DNA of 64,000 nucleotides from NCBI GenBank assembly GCA_013214205.1, contig JABSPQ010000340.1, positions 1-64,000 on the forward strand, written 5' to 3'. A program made the translations under genes and the position numbers. Positions 29,974 to 53,112 of this stretch are shown in pieces (positions within the stretch are counted from its first letter, which is position 1; every line of letters starts with the position of its first letter). The notes under the pieces were generated by a model. The model saw nothing but the letters and a program-made list of their open reading frames with translations, ran no database searches and was not told the DNA's origin. The DNA is from Flavobacteriales bacterium (GTDB lineage Bacteria > Bacteroidota > Bacteroidia > DT-38).

Positions 29974-31062
29974 ATGGGTAAGAAAGCATTAATCACGGGA
30001 ATTACAGGACAGGACGGGGCTTATTTGGCTGAACTGCTTCTTGAAAAAGGGTACGAAGTGCACGGAATTAAGAGAAGAAGTTCTTCTTTTAACACCACGC
30101 GAATAGATCATTTGTATAAAGATCCGTTAGAAAGCAAAGTGAATTTTTATTTGCACTATGGCGATTTAACAGATTCTACCAACTTAATTAGAATTGTTCA
30201 GGACGTTCAACCAGATGAAATTTATAACCTTGCAACACAATCGCATGTTAAGGTTTCTTTCGAAACACCTGAGTATACTGCAAATGCAGATGCTTTAGGA
30301 ACTTTACGTTTGTTGGAGGCAATAAGGATTTTGGGTCTCGAAAAGAAAACAAGGTTCTATCAAGCGTCTACATCCGAAATGTATGGCTTGGTTCAGGAAG
30401 TACCTCAAAGCGAAACCACACCTTTTTATCCAAGAAGCCCTTACGGTGTTGCAAAGCTGTACTCGTATTGGATAGTGAGAAACTATAGGGAAGCCTACGG
30501 AATCTATGCATGTAATGGCATCTTATTCAATCATGAAAGTCCTATTAGAGGCGAAACATTTGTAACCAGAAAGATTACTAGAGCTGTAGTAAGGATTAAG
30601 TTAGGTTTGCAGAAAAAGATTTTCCTCGGAAACTTAAATGCGGAAAGAGATTGGGGGCATGCTAAAGATTATGTTGAAGGCATGTGGAGAATGATGCAGC
30701 ACAGTGAAGCCGATGATTTTGTATTAGCAACTGGTGTTAACGTTAGCGTTAGAGATTTCGTTGAATTGGCTTTAAAAGAAGTTGACATCAAGGTGAAATG
30801 GGAAGGTGAAGGCGAGGATGAAAAAGGTATTAATGTAGCTAACGGCGAGGTAATTATTGAGGTTGATCCGAAGTATTACAGACCAACCGAAGTAGAAATT
30901 TTGCTTGGTGATGCAACCAAGGCCAAAAATATTTTGGGCTGGGAGCCAACGCATACATTAGAAAATTTAGTAAGAGATATGGTTGCTGGTGATATGAACG
31001 ATGTAAATCGCGATAAATATTTACTAGAAGGTGGTCATAAAGTAATGGACTTTAACGAATAA
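29974..31062 (+). CDS. gmd: GDP-mannose 4,6-dehydratase
   Basis: Gmd converts GDP-D-mannose to GDP-4-keto-6-deoxy-D-mannose, the branch point to GDP-L-fucose, GDP-colitose, rhamnose and perosamine. An extended SDR of 362 aa: NADP-binding [21 protein letters not shown] (G11-x-x-G14), [13 protein letters not shown], catalytic STSEMYG and [10 protein letters not shown] (YxxxK). A GDP-fucose synthase follows 4 bp later, so both lie in one operon. It may also feed the colitose-type genes at 50.8-53.0 kb. Confidence 0.97.
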
Positions 31063-31066
31063 TAAA

Positions 31067-32002
31067 TTGGATTCAAACGACAAAATATTTGTTGCAGGGC
31101 ATAAGGGGATGGTGGGAAGCGCCATCGTTAGGAAATTAGTAGCCGAAGGGCACACTAAAATTGTTACTGTTTCTTCTAAAGATTTAGACCTGACTAAACA
31201 GCAGGAGGTCAGTGATTTTTTTACAGACGAACGGCCGGATTATGTATTTCTTGCTGCTGCTAAAGTTGGCGGCATTCATGCAAATAATTCTTTTGGTGCG
31301 GAGTTTATCTACAATAACTTGATGATTCAAACTAACGTTATTCATCAGGCTCATTTAACCAATGTTAAGAAACTGGTTTTTATGGGTTCTTCTTGTATTT
31401 ATCCTCGCATGGCACCACAGCCACTTAACGAAAGCAGCCTGTTAACAGGGCCACTAGAGCCAACAAACGAATCATATGCAATCGCAAAGATTGCAGGGAT
31501 AAAAACCTGTCAGGCCTACAATGCGCAATACGGAAGCAATTTTATTTCTGTTATGCCAACCAATTTATATGGTCCAAACGATAACTACGATTTAGAAAAC
31601 TCGCATGTGTTGCCAGCGCTTCTTAAGAAGATTTACATGGCAAAAATTGATGAGTTGGAAAGTGTTGATATTTGGGGATCGGGCAAGCCCAAACGTGAGT
31701 TTTTACACGTTGACGATTTGGCTGAGGCTACCTATTTTCTGATGCAGAACTATAACGATCCGAGCTTGATAAACATCGGCACAGGAGAGGATTTAAGTAT
31801 TAAGGAATTAGCCGAGTTAATCTGTGGTATTGTTGGATTTAAAGGTGAATTATTATTCGATACTTCAATGCCAGATGGCACACCAAGAAAACTTTTGGAT
31901 GTTTCTAAACTCCGAGATCTTGGTTGGAAACACAAAACAAAGTTGAAAGATGGAATCGCTGATGTTTATGAGAGCATCGCAACTGCTGGTATATTTGCGT
32001 AA
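31067..32002 (+). CDS. fcl: GDP-L-fucose synthase
   Basis: Fcl (WcaG) epimerises and reduces GDP-4-keto-6-deoxy-mannose to GDP-L-fucose. 311 aa from a TTG start ([20 protein letters not shown]). It shows the SDR glycine motif [17 protein letters not shown] with the active-site Ser/Cys, and YAIAKIAG (YxxxK). It lies directly behind gmd (4 bp), the classic pairing. A paralog at 50824-51762 may serve a different product. Confidence 0.94.
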
Positions 32003-32023: not shown

Positions 32024-33610
32024 TTGAGAGAGCCAATAATAATCTTATTGCTAGTTATTGTATTCAGCCTTAAAGCTGAGGCGCAGGAGAATTATTATCA
32101 TCTAAATCACAATTATTCCATTGGTTATGGCCAAGCACTAAACAGTTTAGATACAATTGTTCATACTGGTGTAAAGCCGTTAAACCCTCGCTGGACAAAC
32201 AAGGCGCTAAATGTTGGAGCTACCGATACCTCCACCCGAAAGTGGTTTTACCGAAAATTTAAGCAAGATCACCTCATTCATATCAAAGGAAAAGATTTTG
32301 ATTTAACCATCGATCCCCTTTTTAATTTCAGTTACGGTATCGATATAGCCGACACCACTCTAAGAGCTGATGAAGTAAATTTTATTAATAATACACGTGG
32401 GGCAATGCTTACTGGCAGAATTGGTGAGGCCATTACATTTAGTACCACATTTTACGAGAATCAAACTTACTTTAGAGAGTACATTGATAATCATGTTCGC
32501 TCTAAGGAGGTTCGAGATAGTTATAGCAGATTAACGGGAATTGTACCCGGGCAAGGGCGTGTAAAAAACTTCAAAACTTATGGTTTTGATTACGCCATGG
32601 CTTCTGGAAGTGTTACGCTTACCCCCAACGACAAATTAAGTTTTAGCTTAGGCAATGGTAAACATTTTATTGGTGATGGATATCGTTCTTTGTTTCTATC
32701 CGACAACTCGTCTAACTACCCTTATTTTAGTGCTACCGCCAACTTAGGTAAGATTCAATACACCACCATTTATTCGGTGTTGCAAAACTATTATCGAATT
32801 CCTGGTTTCCCTACCGGCGATGCTTTGTTTCAACGGAAAAAGGCCAGTTTTAGTTATTTAAGTTGGAATGTTACCAAGAGAATTCAGCTTGGATTTTTTG
32901 AGGGGATTATTTGGGAATCCCTTGATTCTTCAATGACGTCAGACTTTAACTACAACTTCTTAAATCCTCTTATTTATACCAGAACATTGCAATATTCATT
33001 AAGCAATCAAATTAACACTTTGATTGGTTTAAGTGCTAAGGTAGAGTTGTTTAATAGGGCGGAGCTGTATAGTCAGTTAATGTTGGATGGGTTTAAAGAA
33101 CATGACAAAGTAGGTTATCAAATTGGCTACAAAGGATACAACTTTGGGCACATCAAAAATTTATTTGTTCAGCTAGAGTACAACAGCACAAGTGCGTTTA
33201 GCTATGCGCATGCAGATTCTTCTCAAAATTACGCTCATATGTACGAGCCGTTAGCTCATCCAATGGGAGCGAATTTTTCTGAATTGGTTTCCATTGTAAA
33301 CTACGAGATCAAGAGTTTTAGACTAGCTATGAAGTATAATTATGCGAAATCAACCAAAGATTCTGTCAATACAAACGTTGGCAATAATATTTTTGCTTCC
33401 GAAGACAACGGAAAAGCAGAAAATGGTGTCTCTAATAGTATAAGCTATTTAGATTTAAGCCTTTCGTACCTGCTTAACCCTAAAACCAATATGAGGTTAA
33501 CAGCAGGGGTTTCAGGTAGAATTAATGATAATGTGATGGGAAAAGAAATCAGTAAGTTTTTTTATATAGCTTTTAGAACTTCGTTAACAAACAGTTACTA
33601 TGATTTTTAA
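32024..33610 (+). CDS. RemB/Wzi-like outer-membrane beta-barrel protein, copy 1
   Basis: 528 aa from a TTG start, with a signal peptide (IIILLLVIVFSLKAEAQ). The body is rich in alternating beta strands and aromatic residues as in outer-membrane barrels. Conserved blocks shared with the second copy at 34748 are FIGDGYRSLFLSD, SYLSWNVTKRIQLGFFEG and YEPLAHPMGANF. I associate these blocks with proteins annotated as gliding-motility protein RemB in flavobacteria, and more loosely with Wzi-type capsule proteins; that is memory, not search. Its place between gmd-fcl and a WecA-like transferase suggests a role in surface polysaccharide export or attachment. Confidence 0.6.
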   Translation: MREPIIILLLVIVFSLKAEAQENYYHLNHNYSIGYGQALNSLDTIVHTGVKPLNPRWTNKALNVGATDTSTRKWFYRKFKQDHLIHIKGKDFDLTIDPLFNFSYGIDIADTTLRADEVNFINNTRGAMLTGRIGEAITFSTTFYENQTYFREYIDNHVRSKEVRDSYSRLTGIVPGQGRVKNFKTYGFDYAMASGSVTLTPNDKLSFSLGNGKHFIGDGYRSLFLSDNSSNYPYFSATANLGKIQYTTIYSVLQNYYRIPGFPTGDALFQRKKASFSYLSWNVTKRIQLGFFEGIIWESLDSSMTSDFNYNFLNPLIYTRTLQYSLSNQINTLIGLSAKVELFNRAELYSQLMLDGFKEHDKVGYQIGYKGYNFGHIKNLFVQLEYNSTSAFSYAHADSSQNYAHMYEPLAHPMGANFSELVSIVNYEIKSFRLAMKYNYAKSTKDSVNTNVGNNIFASEDNGKAENGVSNSISYLDLSLSYLLNPKTNMRLTAGVSGRINDNVMGKEISKFFYIAFRTSLTNSYYDF

Positions 33611-34747: not shown

Positions 34748-36331
34748 GTGCGGATTCTTACTGTAGTTTTATTATCAATAATTGCCATCTTAACGCAAGA
34801 TCGCATCGCTATTGGTCAACAAAACACTTTGCCACTTACTAGAGCTATTTCAGGACGCTCTGGAGTACTTCTTAACGACACAGGGGTATATTTTCATACT
34901 TCCATTAAACCATACGTAAAGGCAGATCTATATAAGGCTATTGATACCAAAGTTATTATTGATCCATTATTGGGAACCCATGGTAAAAGCGCTTTTATGG
35001 ATGCGCTATTGGGCAATTTACTATACAAGAAAACGGATAAGATCCAGTTTTCACTCGATCCTATTTTAACTGCGCAGATTGGTTATGGAAATAGTATTTT
35101 ATCTTCTTTTCAAGCTGGGGCAGGTTTTAATCTAGACCTAGGAAAAAAATGGAGCATCGATTCTAAGTTTTACGCTTCTGTCGATAAATTCCCTAATCAC
35201 ATAAAGAGTTTTGCCTATCAGAACAGAGTTGTTCCGGGCCGCGGATTTGCTTCGGAGTTGGCGGGTCATTCCCATGTTGGTTTTGGTAGTCGGTACTTCG
35301 AAACACACGTTAATTACGCTCCATCAAAACATTTTCACATTCAGGCTGGGCACGGAAAGAATTTTATTGGCGATGGATACAGGTCGTTGCTGCTCTCAGA
35401 TTACTCGAATAGTTACCCGTATGTAAGAGTAAATACGAAAATTTGGAAGGTGAATTATGTGAATTTATTCATGAACTTAAAGGACATAAGCAACTCATCT
35501 CGGTATTTCGATTCTAAAAATAAATACGTTTCAATTCATTATTTAAGTTGGAACATTACCAAAAGAATTAACCTCGGAATTTTTGAAGGGGTAGTTTTCG
35601 AATCTAGAGACAGCAGTAAGTCAATGGGTTTTGATTTCAATTACGTCAATCCAATTATTTTCTTTAGACCAGTTGAATATGCTCAAGGCTCTGCCGACAA
35701 TGTAATTTTGGGTTGGAGCATGAAATTTAAACTGTTTAAGAAACAACAGCTTTATTTTCAAATGGTGTTAGATGAGTTTTTGAAGGATAGCATAGTTGCT
35801 CGAACAGGCTGGTGGGCCAATAAATACGGTTTTCAATTAGGCTTTAAAAGTTTTGATGTGTTCAAAATTGATGGCTTAAAAATTCAGGGTGAATTTAACA
35901 TTGTTCGACCCTATACTTATTCTCATAATCAGGTATCACAGAATTATGGTCATTACAATCAGCCATTGGCGCATCCTATGGGGGCTAATTTTGTTGAAGC
36001 CATCGGAATTGCTAGATATTACAGGAAGCGATGGGGCTTTCAGGGGAAGGTAGTTTATGCCGAATATGGCCTTAACGATTCGCTTAATTATGGGAAAGAC
36101 ATATTTGTAGCCAATACTTCCAGACCCTACCAAACGGGTGTTACCATCGGACAGGGTGTTAATGAGAAATTATTGGTATCCGAGTTAGGTGTATCTTATT
36201 TGTTAAATCGGCTTTCTAATTTAACGATAGAGCTTAACTTTGCAAACAGAACAACAAGCAGAAACGGTTCCTATAACTTTGTAATGTTCGGCATTCGAAC
36301 AAATATATTAAATCGGTATTACGATATTTAA
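34748..36331 (+). CDS. RemB/Wzi-like outer-membrane beta-barrel protein, copy 2
   Basis: 527 aa from a GTG start (MRILTVVLLSIIAILTQ), with a signal peptide ending near IAIGQQ. It shares with copy 1 the blocks FIGDGYRSLLLSD, HYLSWNITKRINLGIFEGV and NQPLAHPMGANF, plus FDFNYVNPIIFFRPVEYAQG and WWANKYGFQLG, which I recall from RemB-annotated proteins. It starts 15 bp after the WecA-like gene and is followed 12 bp later by the SCO gene. The two copies are diverged in the N-terminal 150 residues, so they probably do not do the same thing. Confidence 0.6.
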   Translation: MRILTVVLLSIIAILTQDRIAIGQQNTLPLTRAISGRSGVLLNDTGVYFHTSIKPYVKADLYKAIDTKVIIDPLLGTHGKSAFMDALLGNLLYKKTDKIQFSLDPILTAQIGYGNSILSSFQAGAGFNLDLGKKWSIDSKFYASVDKFPNHIKSFAYQNRVVPGRGFASELAGHSHVGFGSRYFETHVNYAPSKHFHIQAGHGKNFIGDGYRSLLLSDYSNSYPYVRVNTKIWKVNYVNLFMNLKDISNSSRYFDSKNKYVSIHYLSWNITKRINLGIFEGVVFESRDSSKSMGFDFNYVNPIIFFRPVEYAQGSADNVILGWSMKFKLFKKQQLYFQMVLDEFLKDSIVARTGWWANKYGFQLGFKSFDVFKIDGLKIQGEFNIVRPYTYSHNQVSQNYGHYNQPLAHPMGANFVEAIGIARYYRKRWGFQGKVVYAEYGLNDSLNYGKDIFVANTSRPYQTGVTIGQGVNEKLLVSELGVSYLLNRLSNLTIELNFANRTTSRNGSYNFVMFGIRTNILNRYYDI

Positions 36332-50823: not shown

Positions 50824-51762
50824 ATGAATAAAGACGACAAGATTTTTATCGCCGGACACAACGGTATGGTTGGCTCTTCGATATTAAAAAATCTTCAAGA
50901 TCGTAATTATCCCAATTTAATTGTTGCTGATAAAGGGAGGATTGATTTAAGAAATAGAGAGTTGGTAGATGAGTTTTTTGCAGAGCACAAACCCAATCAG
51001 GTAATTTTGGCGGCGGCGAAAGTTGGTGGCATTAATGCCAATATGAAATTCCCGGCAGATTTTATTTTTGATAACCTTGCCATTCAAAACAGCATTTTTA
51101 GTGCTGCTGAAAAGAATGGAACTGAGAAGATTGTTTTTTTAGGCAGTTCGTGTCTCTATCCAAAGGAATGCAAGCAACCTATGAAAGAAGAGTACATGAT
51201 GACTGGCCCTTTGGAGCCTACCAATGAAGGTTATGCAATTGCCAAACTGGCCGGAGTTAGCATGGCAAAAGCTTATTACGAGCAACACGGAATTAAATAT
51301 GTTTCTCTTATTCCCTGCAATTTATATGGTCCCAACGATAGTTTCGATTTGGAACACAGCCATGTGCTTTCTGCTTTGGTTAGAAAGTTTTCTGACGCTA
51401 AAAAAAATGGCGATTCCGATGTTTCTGTGTGGGGAACAGGTATTGCAAAAAGAGAGTTTTTACATGTACAAGATATGGCCGAAGCTGTTGTGTTTTTGAT
51501 GGAAAATGATGTTGAGGACGATATGATTAACATCGGCTGGGGAGAAGAAATCTCAATTAAAGAATTGGCCGAAATGATTCGCGATAAAGTAGGTTTCGAA
51601 GGTGAGTTAAAATGGGATACATCTAAGCCTGATGGCATGTTGAGGAAATGTATGGACGTTGAGAAAATGAAGGCGTACGGCTTTTCGCCAAAGGTAAGTT
51701 TATCGGAAGGTGTAGATGAAATGATAGAGATTTATGCTGGCATGCAGACAGCTAACCAGTAA
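50824..51762 (+). CDS. GDP-4-keto-6-deoxy-sugar epimerase/reductase: GDP-L-colitose synthase-like or second GDP-L-fucose synthase
   Basis: 312 aa, extended SDR, paralog of the Fcl at 31067. Motifs: [32 protein letters not shown] and YAIAKLAG (YxxxK). By sequence alone it would be called GDP-L-fucose synthase. The next gene encodes a ColD-like dehydratase, though, and ColC (GDP-L-colitose synthase) is an Fcl homolog that uses the ColD product. A complete gmd-fcl pair already exists 20 kb away, so a ColC role would explain the second copy. Assignment is by context; simple redundancy is the alternative. Confidence 0.65.
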   Translation: MNKDDKIFIAGHNGMVGSSILKNLQDRNYPNLIVADKGRIDLRNRELVDEFFAEHKPNQVILAAAKVGGINANMKFPADFIFDNLAIQNSIFSAAEKNGTEKIVFLGSSCLYPKECKQPMKEEYMMTGPLEPTNEGYAIAKLAGVSMAKAYYEQHGIKYVSLIPCNLYGPNDSFDLEHSHVLSALVRKFSDAKKNGDSDVSVWGTGIAKREFLHVQDMAEAVVFLMENDVEDDMINIGWGEEISIKELAEMIRDKVGFEGELKWDTSKPDGMLRKCMDVEKMKAYGFSPKVSLSEGVDEMIEIYAGMQTANQ

Positions 51763-51785
51763 CTACTAACTTTTAAAAGTTGTAG
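51763..51785. repeat. Inverted repeat between the epimerase and ColD-like genes
   Basis: CTAC-T-AACTTTTAAAAGTT-GTAG can fold with 4 bp plus 5 bp, a bulged T and a TTAA loop, directly after the stop codon. It may attenuate or process the transcript between the two genes. Low confidence because it is AT-rich. Confidence 0.25.
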
Positions 51786-51826
51786 TATTGTTGATTAAGT
51801 GTACATGAATATCCAAAAAGCAGAGT

Positions 51827-53008
51827 ATGATACCATTAATGAAAAATACGTTTCTTAACGAACAAGTAACTAAAGAAGCACTCGCACGCTTTATTCTTAC
51901 TTCTAATAGGTTAAGTATGGGTGATAATTGCGCCGATTTCGAACAAGCATTTGCACAATATCAAGGCAGTGCCGATGCCGTTTTGTTTAATAGTGGTGGT
52001 AGCGCCAACTTGGCTATGTTGCAAGCACTTTTAAACCGGGGGAAAGTTAAAACTGGTGCTAAAGTGGGCTTTTCGGCTTTAACGTGGTCTACCAATGTAA
52101 TGCCCATCCTTCAATTAGGTATGATTCCGGTGGCGATAGATTGTAGTATTGATACAATTAATGTGATGTCTGCCAACATTATTGAAACACTAAAAACTGA
52201 AAAAATAGAAGTTTTCTTTTCTACCAATGTACTTGGTTTGGCAGGCGATTTACAAACGATTAAAGAATTGTGCGAGGCCGAAGGCATTATCTACATCGAG
52301 GATAATTGCGAATCTTTAGGAACAGAATTAGAAGGAGGCAAAACAGGAACTTTTGGCTTGGCATCAAGCTTCTCGTTCTTTGTAGCTCATCACATGTCTA
52401 CTATAGAAGGGGGAATGGTTTGCACCGACGATGAGGAATTTGCAGAGATGTTAAGGATTGTTAGGGCAAATGGATGGGACAGAAACTTAAAACCCGAACA
52501 ACAAATTAAGTGGCGCCGACAAAACGGAATTAAGAGTGAATTCGATGCCAAATACAGTTTTTATGATTTGGGTTACAACCTTAGACCAACTGAAATAACT
52601 GGTTTTTTAGGCTTGGAACAATTAAAATATTTGGAAGACAACATCAATCAAAGAGAAAAGAATTTTGCTGAAATTGACGCAGTTGCCTCTAAAAATAGTG
52701 ATTTGATAAAAATTAAAACCGATCATATTCTAAAGGTTTCTTCTTTTTCTATGCCGTTTATTTGTAAGTCGAAAGAGCTTAGAGACCAATATGTTTACCA
52801 GTTTTCGGGAGCAGGGATAGAAATAAGACCTATCATATCGGGTAACATGCAAAATCAGCCTTTCTATAAAAAGTATGTTAAAAACATGCAAAACGTAGAT
52901 AGCTCTGAGACCATTTATCAGAATGGTTTTTACTGCGGTAATTACCCTGAGCTAACCAAAAGCGACTTGGCTACTATTGCAGTTTGTGTAAGCCCGCAAG
53001 AGGATTAG
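51827..53008 (+). CDS. PLP/PMP-dependent sugar 3-dehydratase of the DegT fold, ColD-like
   Basis: 393 aa, DegT/DnrJ/EryC1/StrS family (fold type I). In the place where aminotransferases have the PLP lysine, this protein has His: FSFFVAHHMSTIEGGMV (H188). That replacement marks the PMP-dependent dehydratases ColD and E1/RfbH, which remove the C3 hydroxyl of 4-keto-6-deoxy sugars. The following TDDEEFAEMLRIVRANGWDRNL and YNLRPTEITGFLGLEQLK resemble E. coli ColD closely as I remember it. No E1-type [2Fe-2S] reductase is needed by ColD. Likely substrate: GDP-4-keto-6-deoxymannose from Gmd. A CDP-sugar E1-like role is the alternative. Confidence 0.7.
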   Translation: MIPLMKNTFLNEQVTKEALARFILTSNRLSMGDNCADFEQAFAQYQGSADAVLFNSGGSANLAMLQALLNRGKVKTGAKVGFSALTWSTNVMPILQLGMIPVAIDCSIDTINVMSANIIETLKTEKIEVFFSTNVLGLAGDLQTIKELCEAEGIIYIEDNCESLGTELEGGKTGTFGLASSFSFFVAHHMSTIEGGMVCTDDEEFAEMLRIVRANGWDRNLKPEQQIKWRRQNGIKSEFDAKYSFYDLGYNLRPTEITGFLGLEQLKYLEDNINQREKNFAEIDAVASKNSDLIKIKTDHILKVSSFSMPFICKSKELRDQYVYQFSGAGIEIRPIISGNMQNQPFYKKYVKNMQNVDSSETIYQNGFYCGNYPELTKSDLATIAVCVSPQED

Positions 53009-53068: not shown

Positions 53069-53102
53069 AAAAAAGTGTGAGTTTCTTGTCGAAACTCACA
53101 CT
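53069..53102 (-). terminator. Intrinsic terminator of tRNA-Phe
   Basis: Read on the minus strand, AGTGTGAGTTTC pairs perfectly over 12 bp with GAAACTCACACT around a 5-nt loop (GACAA) and is followed by a run of T (plus-strand A at 53069-53074). It begins 11 bp after the tRNA 3' end. It is the most convincing terminator in the window. Confidence 0.85.
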
Positions 53103-53112
53103 CAAATCTGTT

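Follow-up and report, generated by a model that had tools for sequence, protein, structure and literature searches.

Genes at the locus

The DNA analysed here (the window, 64,000 nucleotides of a contig from a Flavobacteriales bacterium) encodes two Fcl-type enzymes, Fcl1 and Fcl2, and the gene of the second is followed by one for a DegT-fold protein. An earlier reading of the letters alone (the sequence-only reading) had taken fcl2 and its neighbour for a pair that converts the product of GDP-mannose 4,6-dehydratase (Gmd) to GDP-L-colitose, and that automatic annotation would pass over as a fucose synthase and an aminotransferase. Both open reading frames (ORFs) lie side by side exactly at the positions given there, separated by 64 bases, and gmd is indeed found at 30 kb, with fcl1 starting 5 bases past it. 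The features on which the argument rests are the following (aa, amino acids; PMP, pyridoxamine 5'-phosphate):

50824-51762, plus strand: fcl2, 312 aa, Fcl-fold C5-epimerase/C4-reductase, proposed GDP-L-colitose synthase (ColC-like function, own clade)
51316-51318, 51445-51447 and 51637-51639, plus strand: codons of Cys165, Ala208 and Met272 of Fcl2, the ColC-type signature, from residue comparison
51827-53008, plus strand: colD-like DegT-fold gene, 393 aa, motif SFFVAHHMSTIEGG, proposed PMP-dependent GDP-4-keto-6-deoxymannose 3-dehydratase
52388-52390, plus strand: codon of His188, proposed catalytic base replacing the cofactor lysine, aligned with ColD H188
29974-31062, plus strand: gmd, GDP-mannose 4,6-dehydratase, TIGR01472 585.9 bits (cut-off 415), 65% identity to E. 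coli Gmd
31067-32002, plus strand: fcl1, ordinary GDP-L-fucose synthase (Thr/Pro/Thr), 54% identity to E. coli Fcl, NF047922 497.6 bits (just below the cut-off of 500)

The expectation that routine annotation would miss the pair was borne out. None of the NCBIfam models reaches its cut-off for either protein, and Pfam reports DegT/DnrJ/EryC1/StrS and Epimerase and nothing else; in E. coli O55 itself, the gene for ColC goes under "GDP-L-fucose synthase family protein" and that for ColD under "DegT/DnrJ/EryC1/StrS family aminotransferase". Fcl2 scores 419.9 bits against NF047922 (GDP-L-fucose synthase), under the 500-bit cut-off, which is a strict one, as Fcl1, taken as an ordinary Fcl, narrowly fails it as well.

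The DegT-fold protein and its clade

His188 of the window protein occupies the place of the cofactor lysine in aminotransferases and aligns with H188 of E. coli ColD. Among 176 aligned DegT-family proteins this column holds His in 162 and Lys in 14, the latter including all seven other full-length DegT-family proteins fetched from the window's genome (five weak partial matches lie outside this set). All 78 members of the clade to which the window protein belongs keep this His, which is therefore not a chance change. A phylogenetic tree of 81 non-redundant rows of the alignment (DegT ORFs of 300-520 aa were taken) separates Lys-type aminotransferases (13 rows, support 100/100), E1 dehydratases (10 rows, 99/93), ColD (22 rows, 100/99) and the window's clade (28 rows, 100/100). 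The window protein lies outside the clade of E. coli ColD, but its clade, ColD and eight unassigned rows form one group apart from E1 and from the aminotransferases (100/97); the placement within an E1 clade that the phylogeny had been proposed to look for was not found.

Pairwise identity is 36% between the window protein and ColD, 35% between ColD and the E1-type protein of locus L005 (typed as E1 by its match to the structure 3bcx, E 3e-178) and 28% between the window protein and L005, so that for these sequences it is the tree, and not pairwise identity, that decides the kind of dehydratase. The residues Trp87, Trp217 and Arg219 are common to 78/78 rows of the window's clade and 57/57 ColD-type rows, and occur in 0/13 E1-type rows. 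Conversely, an E1-like cysteine pattern, defined in a simple way, is found in 10/13 E1-type rows and in 1/78 rows of the window's clade, and is absent from the window protein.

A sequence comparison with solved structures ranks ColD first (E 1.2e-60) and E1 second (1.2e-38). The structure prediction that had been suggested as a check gave an AlphaFold model with a mean predicted local distance difference test score (pLDDT) of 94.3, for which ColD entries are the highest-scoring matches (Z 46.5-47.7), ahead of E1 (44.1 and 43.7) and a perosamine synthase (42.3). The best-supported assignment of the DegT-fold protein is that of a predicted PMP-dependent 3-dehydratase in a clade of its own, joined to ColD rather than to E1.

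ColD (WbdK of E. coli O55; PDB 2gms, 2r0t, 3b8x) has the same fold, His188, Trp88/Trp217/Arg219 and no E1-type cysteine motif, and its gene, as the DegT gene in the window, directly follows a gene for an Fcl-fold reductase. The window protein differs from it in belonging to a separate clade, in Ala/Gly replacing Ser187 and in having another partner reductase in most loci. A review describes ColD as using His as the base, with the intermediate hydrolysed and the cofactor renewed by glutamate, and without an Fe-S cluster (PMC8987622).

E1 (RfbH, PDB 3bcx) has the same fold, the same His for lysine and PMP chemistry, and stands next after ColD in the structural list, from which one could suppose that the pair consists of an RfbH-like enzyme and a reductase working on a CDP- or dTDP-sugar. 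E1 is distinguished, however, by the cysteine-rich motif of a [2Fe-2S] cluster and a CDP-sugar substrate, and the two fall into separate supported clades; the window protein reaches 216.4 bits against NF011936 (PRK15407, E1), below the cut-off of 423, and an adjacent Fcl gene or a gmd gene within 2.5 kb was seen for 0/13 E1-type proteins (and 0/14 Lys-type proteins), although many of these loci are short, several of the E1-type ones only 4 kb. On the tree, the cysteine pattern and the NCBIfam cut-off we reject an E1-type enzyme acting on CDP-sugars, and we regard the whole alternative as very improbable.

Just as improbable is an ordinary pair, namely a GDP-fucose synthase and a sugar aminotransferase of the perosamine type. 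The Pfam families would fit it, and perosamine synthase has the same fold, but His is fixed in the clade in place of the catalytic lysine, the clade stands apart from the Lys-type proteins, Fcl2 lacks Thr/Pro/Thr, and a further Fcl, of the ordinary kind, is encoded in the genome. His188 and the clade are the grounds on which we reject an ordinary aminotransferase.

Some His-type DegT rows (L009, L010, L085, L088, L091, L092, L106, L112 and L123) belong neither to ColD nor to the window's clade, although they are placed close to both. In this group of other His-type proteins gmd lies within 2.5 kb in 7/14, and they are possibly further GDP-sugar 3-dehydratases. Two more His-type DegT proteins (L006:1420-2625 and L007:1369-2571) carry SHVINCAGNGG replacing HH...EGG; that of L007 stands beside the E1 clade.

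Gene neighbourhoods

Loci were collected from the best 80 of 572 confirmed relatives in the species collection and the best 80 of 213 in viral contigs; the counts given here are specific to this sample, and many loci stop at a contig end. Among 77 distinct proteins of the window's clade, 48 have an adjacent Fcl-family gene (35 upstream, 13 downstream), 57 have one anywhere in the stretch, and 22 have gmd within 2.5 kb. An upstream Fcl gene overlaps the dehydratase gene by exactly 4 bases in 16/35 cases, as colC overlaps colD in E. coli; the other spacings range from -32 to +132.

In L031, L034 and L076 (two labelled Elusimicrobia/Elusimicrobiota, one an unclassified bacterium) a dehydratase of the window's clade comes directly after a reductase of the ColC clade, with up to 56% identity to E. 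coli ColC, and the L035 locus, too, contains a ColC-type gene. As one dehydratase clade is thus paired with either reductase in the same place, the sequences suggest that Fcl2 and ColC reductases do the same step.

Two loci have unusual compositions. In L063 (8001-10442; record labelled Nanoarchaeota) a single frame of 814 aa spans a match to the window's dehydratase clade and Gmd, so that two enzymes of successive pathway steps may be naturally fused there. In G343 (L008 and L184), a member of Bacteroidota, a ColC-ColD pair follows gmd and an E1-type gene lies within 9 kb, so perhaps two kinds of dideoxy sugar are made there.

Fcl2 and the residue signature

Fcl2 shares 46% identity with E. 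coli Fcl and 35% with ColC. In a tree of 91 Fcl rows (ORFs of 270-520 aa), which was made by a quick method with no bootstrap and on which the group assignments rest, it belongs to a clade of 29 (SH-like approximate likelihood ratio test 99), of which 27 are encoded directly upstream of a window-clade dehydratase and the remaining ones, of L028 and L043, in the same locus as such a gene. Fcl2 and ColC form separate clades in the free tree, but a single clade of the two is not rejected by the approximately unbiased (AU) test (p 0.397).

Five columns conserved in Fcl are altered in the majority of Fcl2 rows and of ColC rows, three of them to the same new residue: Thr164 to Cys, Pro207 to Ala and Thr280 to Met (E. 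coli Fcl numbers). Written as the three residues in this order, the 29 Fcl2 rows comprise 24 CAM, 3 SAM and 2 PAM; E. coli ColC has Cys/Ser/Met, and in the window Fcl1 is TPT and Fcl2 is CAM. The reference set of eight "true" Fcl proteins contains one from a window-clade locus (L033, SAM), and the other seven are TPT.

The positions were chosen on the first data set and then tested on loci fetched by Fcl similarity (the viral-contig scan with fcl1 yielded 3 loci only). This test set holds 32 genes; all 30 that have no DegT gene in their stretch are TPT, and of the remaining two, which do have one, that of L217 is CAT and that of L199, beside a DegT gene of unassigned type, is TPT. In eight pair-bearing genomes the four Fcl without a dehydratase are TPT and the eight beside one are xAM, these eight being already in the first set. 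Over all distinct rows, Met280 is found in 52/66 genes beside a DegT gene and in 8/53 others, and the eight all come from loci fetched via a 3-dehydratase match. To judge from these alignments, the signature is a property of the Fcl2 and ColC clades and not of every dehydratase partner.

ColC of E. coli O55 is thus like Fcl2 in its Fcl fold, the checked catalytic residues, Met at 280 and Cys at 164, and its position upstream of a 3-dehydratase gene, while Fcl2 is the nearer to fucose synthase. With Fcl (WcaG) itself Fcl2 has the fold and the catalytic residues in common, but it differs in Cys/Ala/Met versus Thr/Pro/Thr and in that its clade is always found in 3-dehydratase loci. The epimerase and reductase residues Ser108, Cys110, Tyr137, Lys141 and His180 are kept in 29/29 Fcl2 rows; in E. 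coli Fcl the epimerase residues are Cys109 and His179. Among solved structures, a model of Fcl2 (pLDDT 94.6) comes closest to E. coli GDP-fucose synthetase, and the next in line is a heptose reductase of C. jejuni (8ewu).

Proposed pathway

We propose, with a probability of about 0.8, that the pair converts the product of Gmd to GDP-L-colitose (GDP-3,6-dideoxy-L-xylo-hexose), and that the colitose module thus has a second lineage besides that of ColC/ColD; the sequence evidence for this consists of the gene order, His188, the lack of an E1-type cysteine motif, the clade placement, the residues common with ColD and ColC, and the partner exchange with ColC. The core of the sequence-only reading, a ColD-like 3-dehydratase with a ColC-like reductase on the Gmd product, is thereby the best-supported one, while its naming of the two as ColC and ColD proper gives way to a separate lineage.

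Gmd would convert GDP-mannose to GDP-4-keto-6-deoxymannose. The DegT-fold enzyme, loaded with PMP that is renewed by glutamate, would form a ketimine at C4, His188 would take a proton from the cofactor and the C3 hydroxyl would leave; hydrolysis, as described for ColD, would then give GDP-4-keto-3,6-dideoxymannose and ammonia. Fcl2 would next epimerise C5 (Cys110/His180) and reduce C4 with NADPH (Ser108/Tyr137/Lys141). Fcl1 would turn the same Gmd product into GDP-L-fucose, competing for the precursor.

Several points weigh against this proposal. Of the 66 reductases beside a DegT gene of His or undetermined type, 14 lack Met280 and two are fully Thr/Pro/Thr; the partners without it include those of L040 (TPT), L048 (CPT) and L026 (TAT) and several downstream or viral ones. 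Twenty-nine of the 77 window-clade proteins have no adjacent Fcl-family gene, and ten neighbours scanned in such loci or in those with odd partners encode mostly glycosyltransferases, but also a flippase-like protein and one GDP_Man_Dehyd-family protein. Given these varied neighbours, not every member of the clade need make the same sugar. The identity of the window protein to ColD is no higher than that of ColD to an E1-type enzyme, and residues 186-191 of its model, the His188 loop, have pLDDT <50. Moreover, the genes adjoining the pair are no glycan genes, searches of the window's genome for GT10 and GT11 gave no match, and to our knowledge no member of the window's clade has been assayed; in searches of open-licence papers for colitose and its enzymes, no title or abstract opening described an assayed enzyme of this clade.

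The diversity of the clade's partners, some of them beyond the Fcl2 and ColC clades, would suit another outcome, in which the 3-dehydratase acts on the Gmd product but Fcl2 gives a different GDP-3,6-dideoxyhexose, without C5 epimerisation or with the other C4 configuration. A precedent exists in C. jejuni, where it depends on the C4-reductase which sugar arises from a single 3-deoxy-4-keto intermediate (PMC10440746). We nevertheless consider this outcome unlikely, as the checked E. coli Fcl residues are kept throughout the Fcl2 rows, among them those of epimerisation, the partner is exchanged with ColC, and the GT10/GT11 neighbours described below fit an L-fucose-like donor.

C. jejuni also offers a model for a heptose route, in which GDP-6-deoxy-4-keto-heptose would be 3-deoxygenated and reduced to GDP-3,6-dideoxyheptose. 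Its HS:5 C3-dehydratase, 62-67% identical to ColD and presumably a member of the ColD clade, can be likened to the window enzyme, as proposed, in the GDP-4-keto sugar, pyridoxal 5'-phosphate plus glutamate and C3 deoxygenation, but it has a heptose substrate and works with a separate C5-epimerase (PMC10440746). The second-best structural match of Fcl2, the heptose reductase, points the same way. In the window's genome, however, the two matches to SIS_2 (GmhA family) are borderline, the better of them scoring precisely the cut-off value of 27 bits (no search was made for HddA/HddC), whereas gmd, fcl1 and a ManC-like gene (34% identity, E 6.5e-59) are present, and we give the heptose route a slim chance.

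Transferases and the surface glycan

In E. coli O55 the colitosyltransferase WbgN, which belongs to GT11, has GDP-colitose as its natural donor and accepts GDP-fucose too (PMC12723683, PMC11987014). The query used here was the gene annotated as alpha-1,2-fucosyltransferase in the E. coli O55 cluster, which we assumed to be WbgN. Its relatives occur in 26/77 window-clade loci, and GT10 or GT11 relatives in 31/77, immediately downstream in 13, versus 3/56 ColD-type loci, which are largely viral contigs. In Flavobacterium psychroterrae CCM 8827 (L023) fcl2, the dehydratase gene, a GT11 gene and gmd are consecutive, and Chryseobacterium kimseyorum 09-1422 (L025) has the same order about 1 kb ahead of gmd. 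In 5/8 pair-bearing genomes checked there is no Fcl besides the xAM one at E<=1e-40. Judged by gene content, the transferase neighbours and the genomes without another Fcl favour an L-fucose-like donor, i.e. L-colitose.

In the window's genome only two Fcl-type genes stand out, fcl1 and fcl2. The GT10 and GT11 searches that were empty there were empty for both families in 14 control genomes as well; the GT11 search was positive in 3/4 genomes reached via sampled loci, GT10 being without such a control. The forecast of a 3,6-dideoxy sugar in the surface glycan of this organism is consequently weaker than had been claimed: colitose there is plausible, with no transferase to which the forecast could be tied.

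Surroundings of the pair and of gmd

The pair is flanked by genes for a histidine kinase and a type III pantothenate kinase; the protein encoded behind the kinase next to the pair is one that we take to be a phosphoglycerate mutase. Ahead of fcl2, at a distance of 47 bases, there is a match to the promoter consensus TTTG-N17-TATTTTTG; since 5 matches of this kind occur in the window and 4.67 are expected, it is no evidence of an fcl2 promoter. A 13-pair inverted repeat right after the pair (53073-53103) is terminator-like on the minus strand only. Near gmd and fcl1, two ORFs of about 528 aa (32024-33610 and 34748-36331) have no Pfam match at E<=1e-5.

Distribution

No near match to the window's clade was found among 59 other related genomes (best 141 bits) or 394 others of the phylum sample (best 200 bits), the identities being 28-35%; in the one genome of the same genus that was compared, the best match to the neighbouring histidine kinase is only 32%. 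In the species collection, relatives with 44-64% identity occur in records labelled Bacteroidota, Elusimicrobia, Planctomycetota, several Patescibacteria, archaea and others. A Streptomyces plasmid has gmd, the dehydratase gene and fcl in a row (47%), and further relatives are found in a 642-kb phage record, LR756502 (60%), and in other viral contigs. This distribution is patchy, which suggests gene exchange, and some labels of metagenome-assembled genomes may be wrong. Besides the fcl2-dehydratase pair, LR756502 (L012:11071-24530) has a GT11 relative and a DegT gene of the E1 type, which points to a giant phage that makes sugars.

There are earlier predictions of colitose outside Gammaproteobacteria: L-colitose is a predicted sugar in a glycan-pathway survey, which reports it absent in the TACK group (PMC7725333), and a verrucomicrobial endosymbiont is annotated with ColC and ColD (PMC8204192). 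The reports of colitose consulted here concern O-antigens or capsules of Escherichia, Salmonella, Yersinia, Vibrio, Aeromonas and Pseudoalteromonas.

A more far-reaching scenario, to which we would give somewhat less than an even chance, is that Fcl2 was recruited from fucose synthase independently of ColC, arrived at the same Cys/Ala/Met, and spread by gene exchange, with the module, through Bacteroidota, Patescibacteria and other phyla, archaea, Streptomyces and giant phages, making colitose far commoner than known O-antigen chemistry would lead one to expect. Convergence of ColC and Fcl2 is kept out of our proposal, because the AU test tolerates a joint clade despite their separate placement in the free tree.

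If the proposed pathway is true, many genes now called "fucose synthase" and "aminotransferase" would become members of the colitose pathway, recognizable by a simple sequence test: Thr/Pro/Thr versus Cys/Ala/Met in the Fcl fold, and His versus Lys in the DegT fold. Its occurrence in Bacteroidota, Patescibacteria, archaea and huge phages would predict colitose in unexamined glycans and provide new enzymes for GDP-colitose, and the exchange of Fcl2 and ColC reductases would make the origin of sugar-nucleotide specificity testable.

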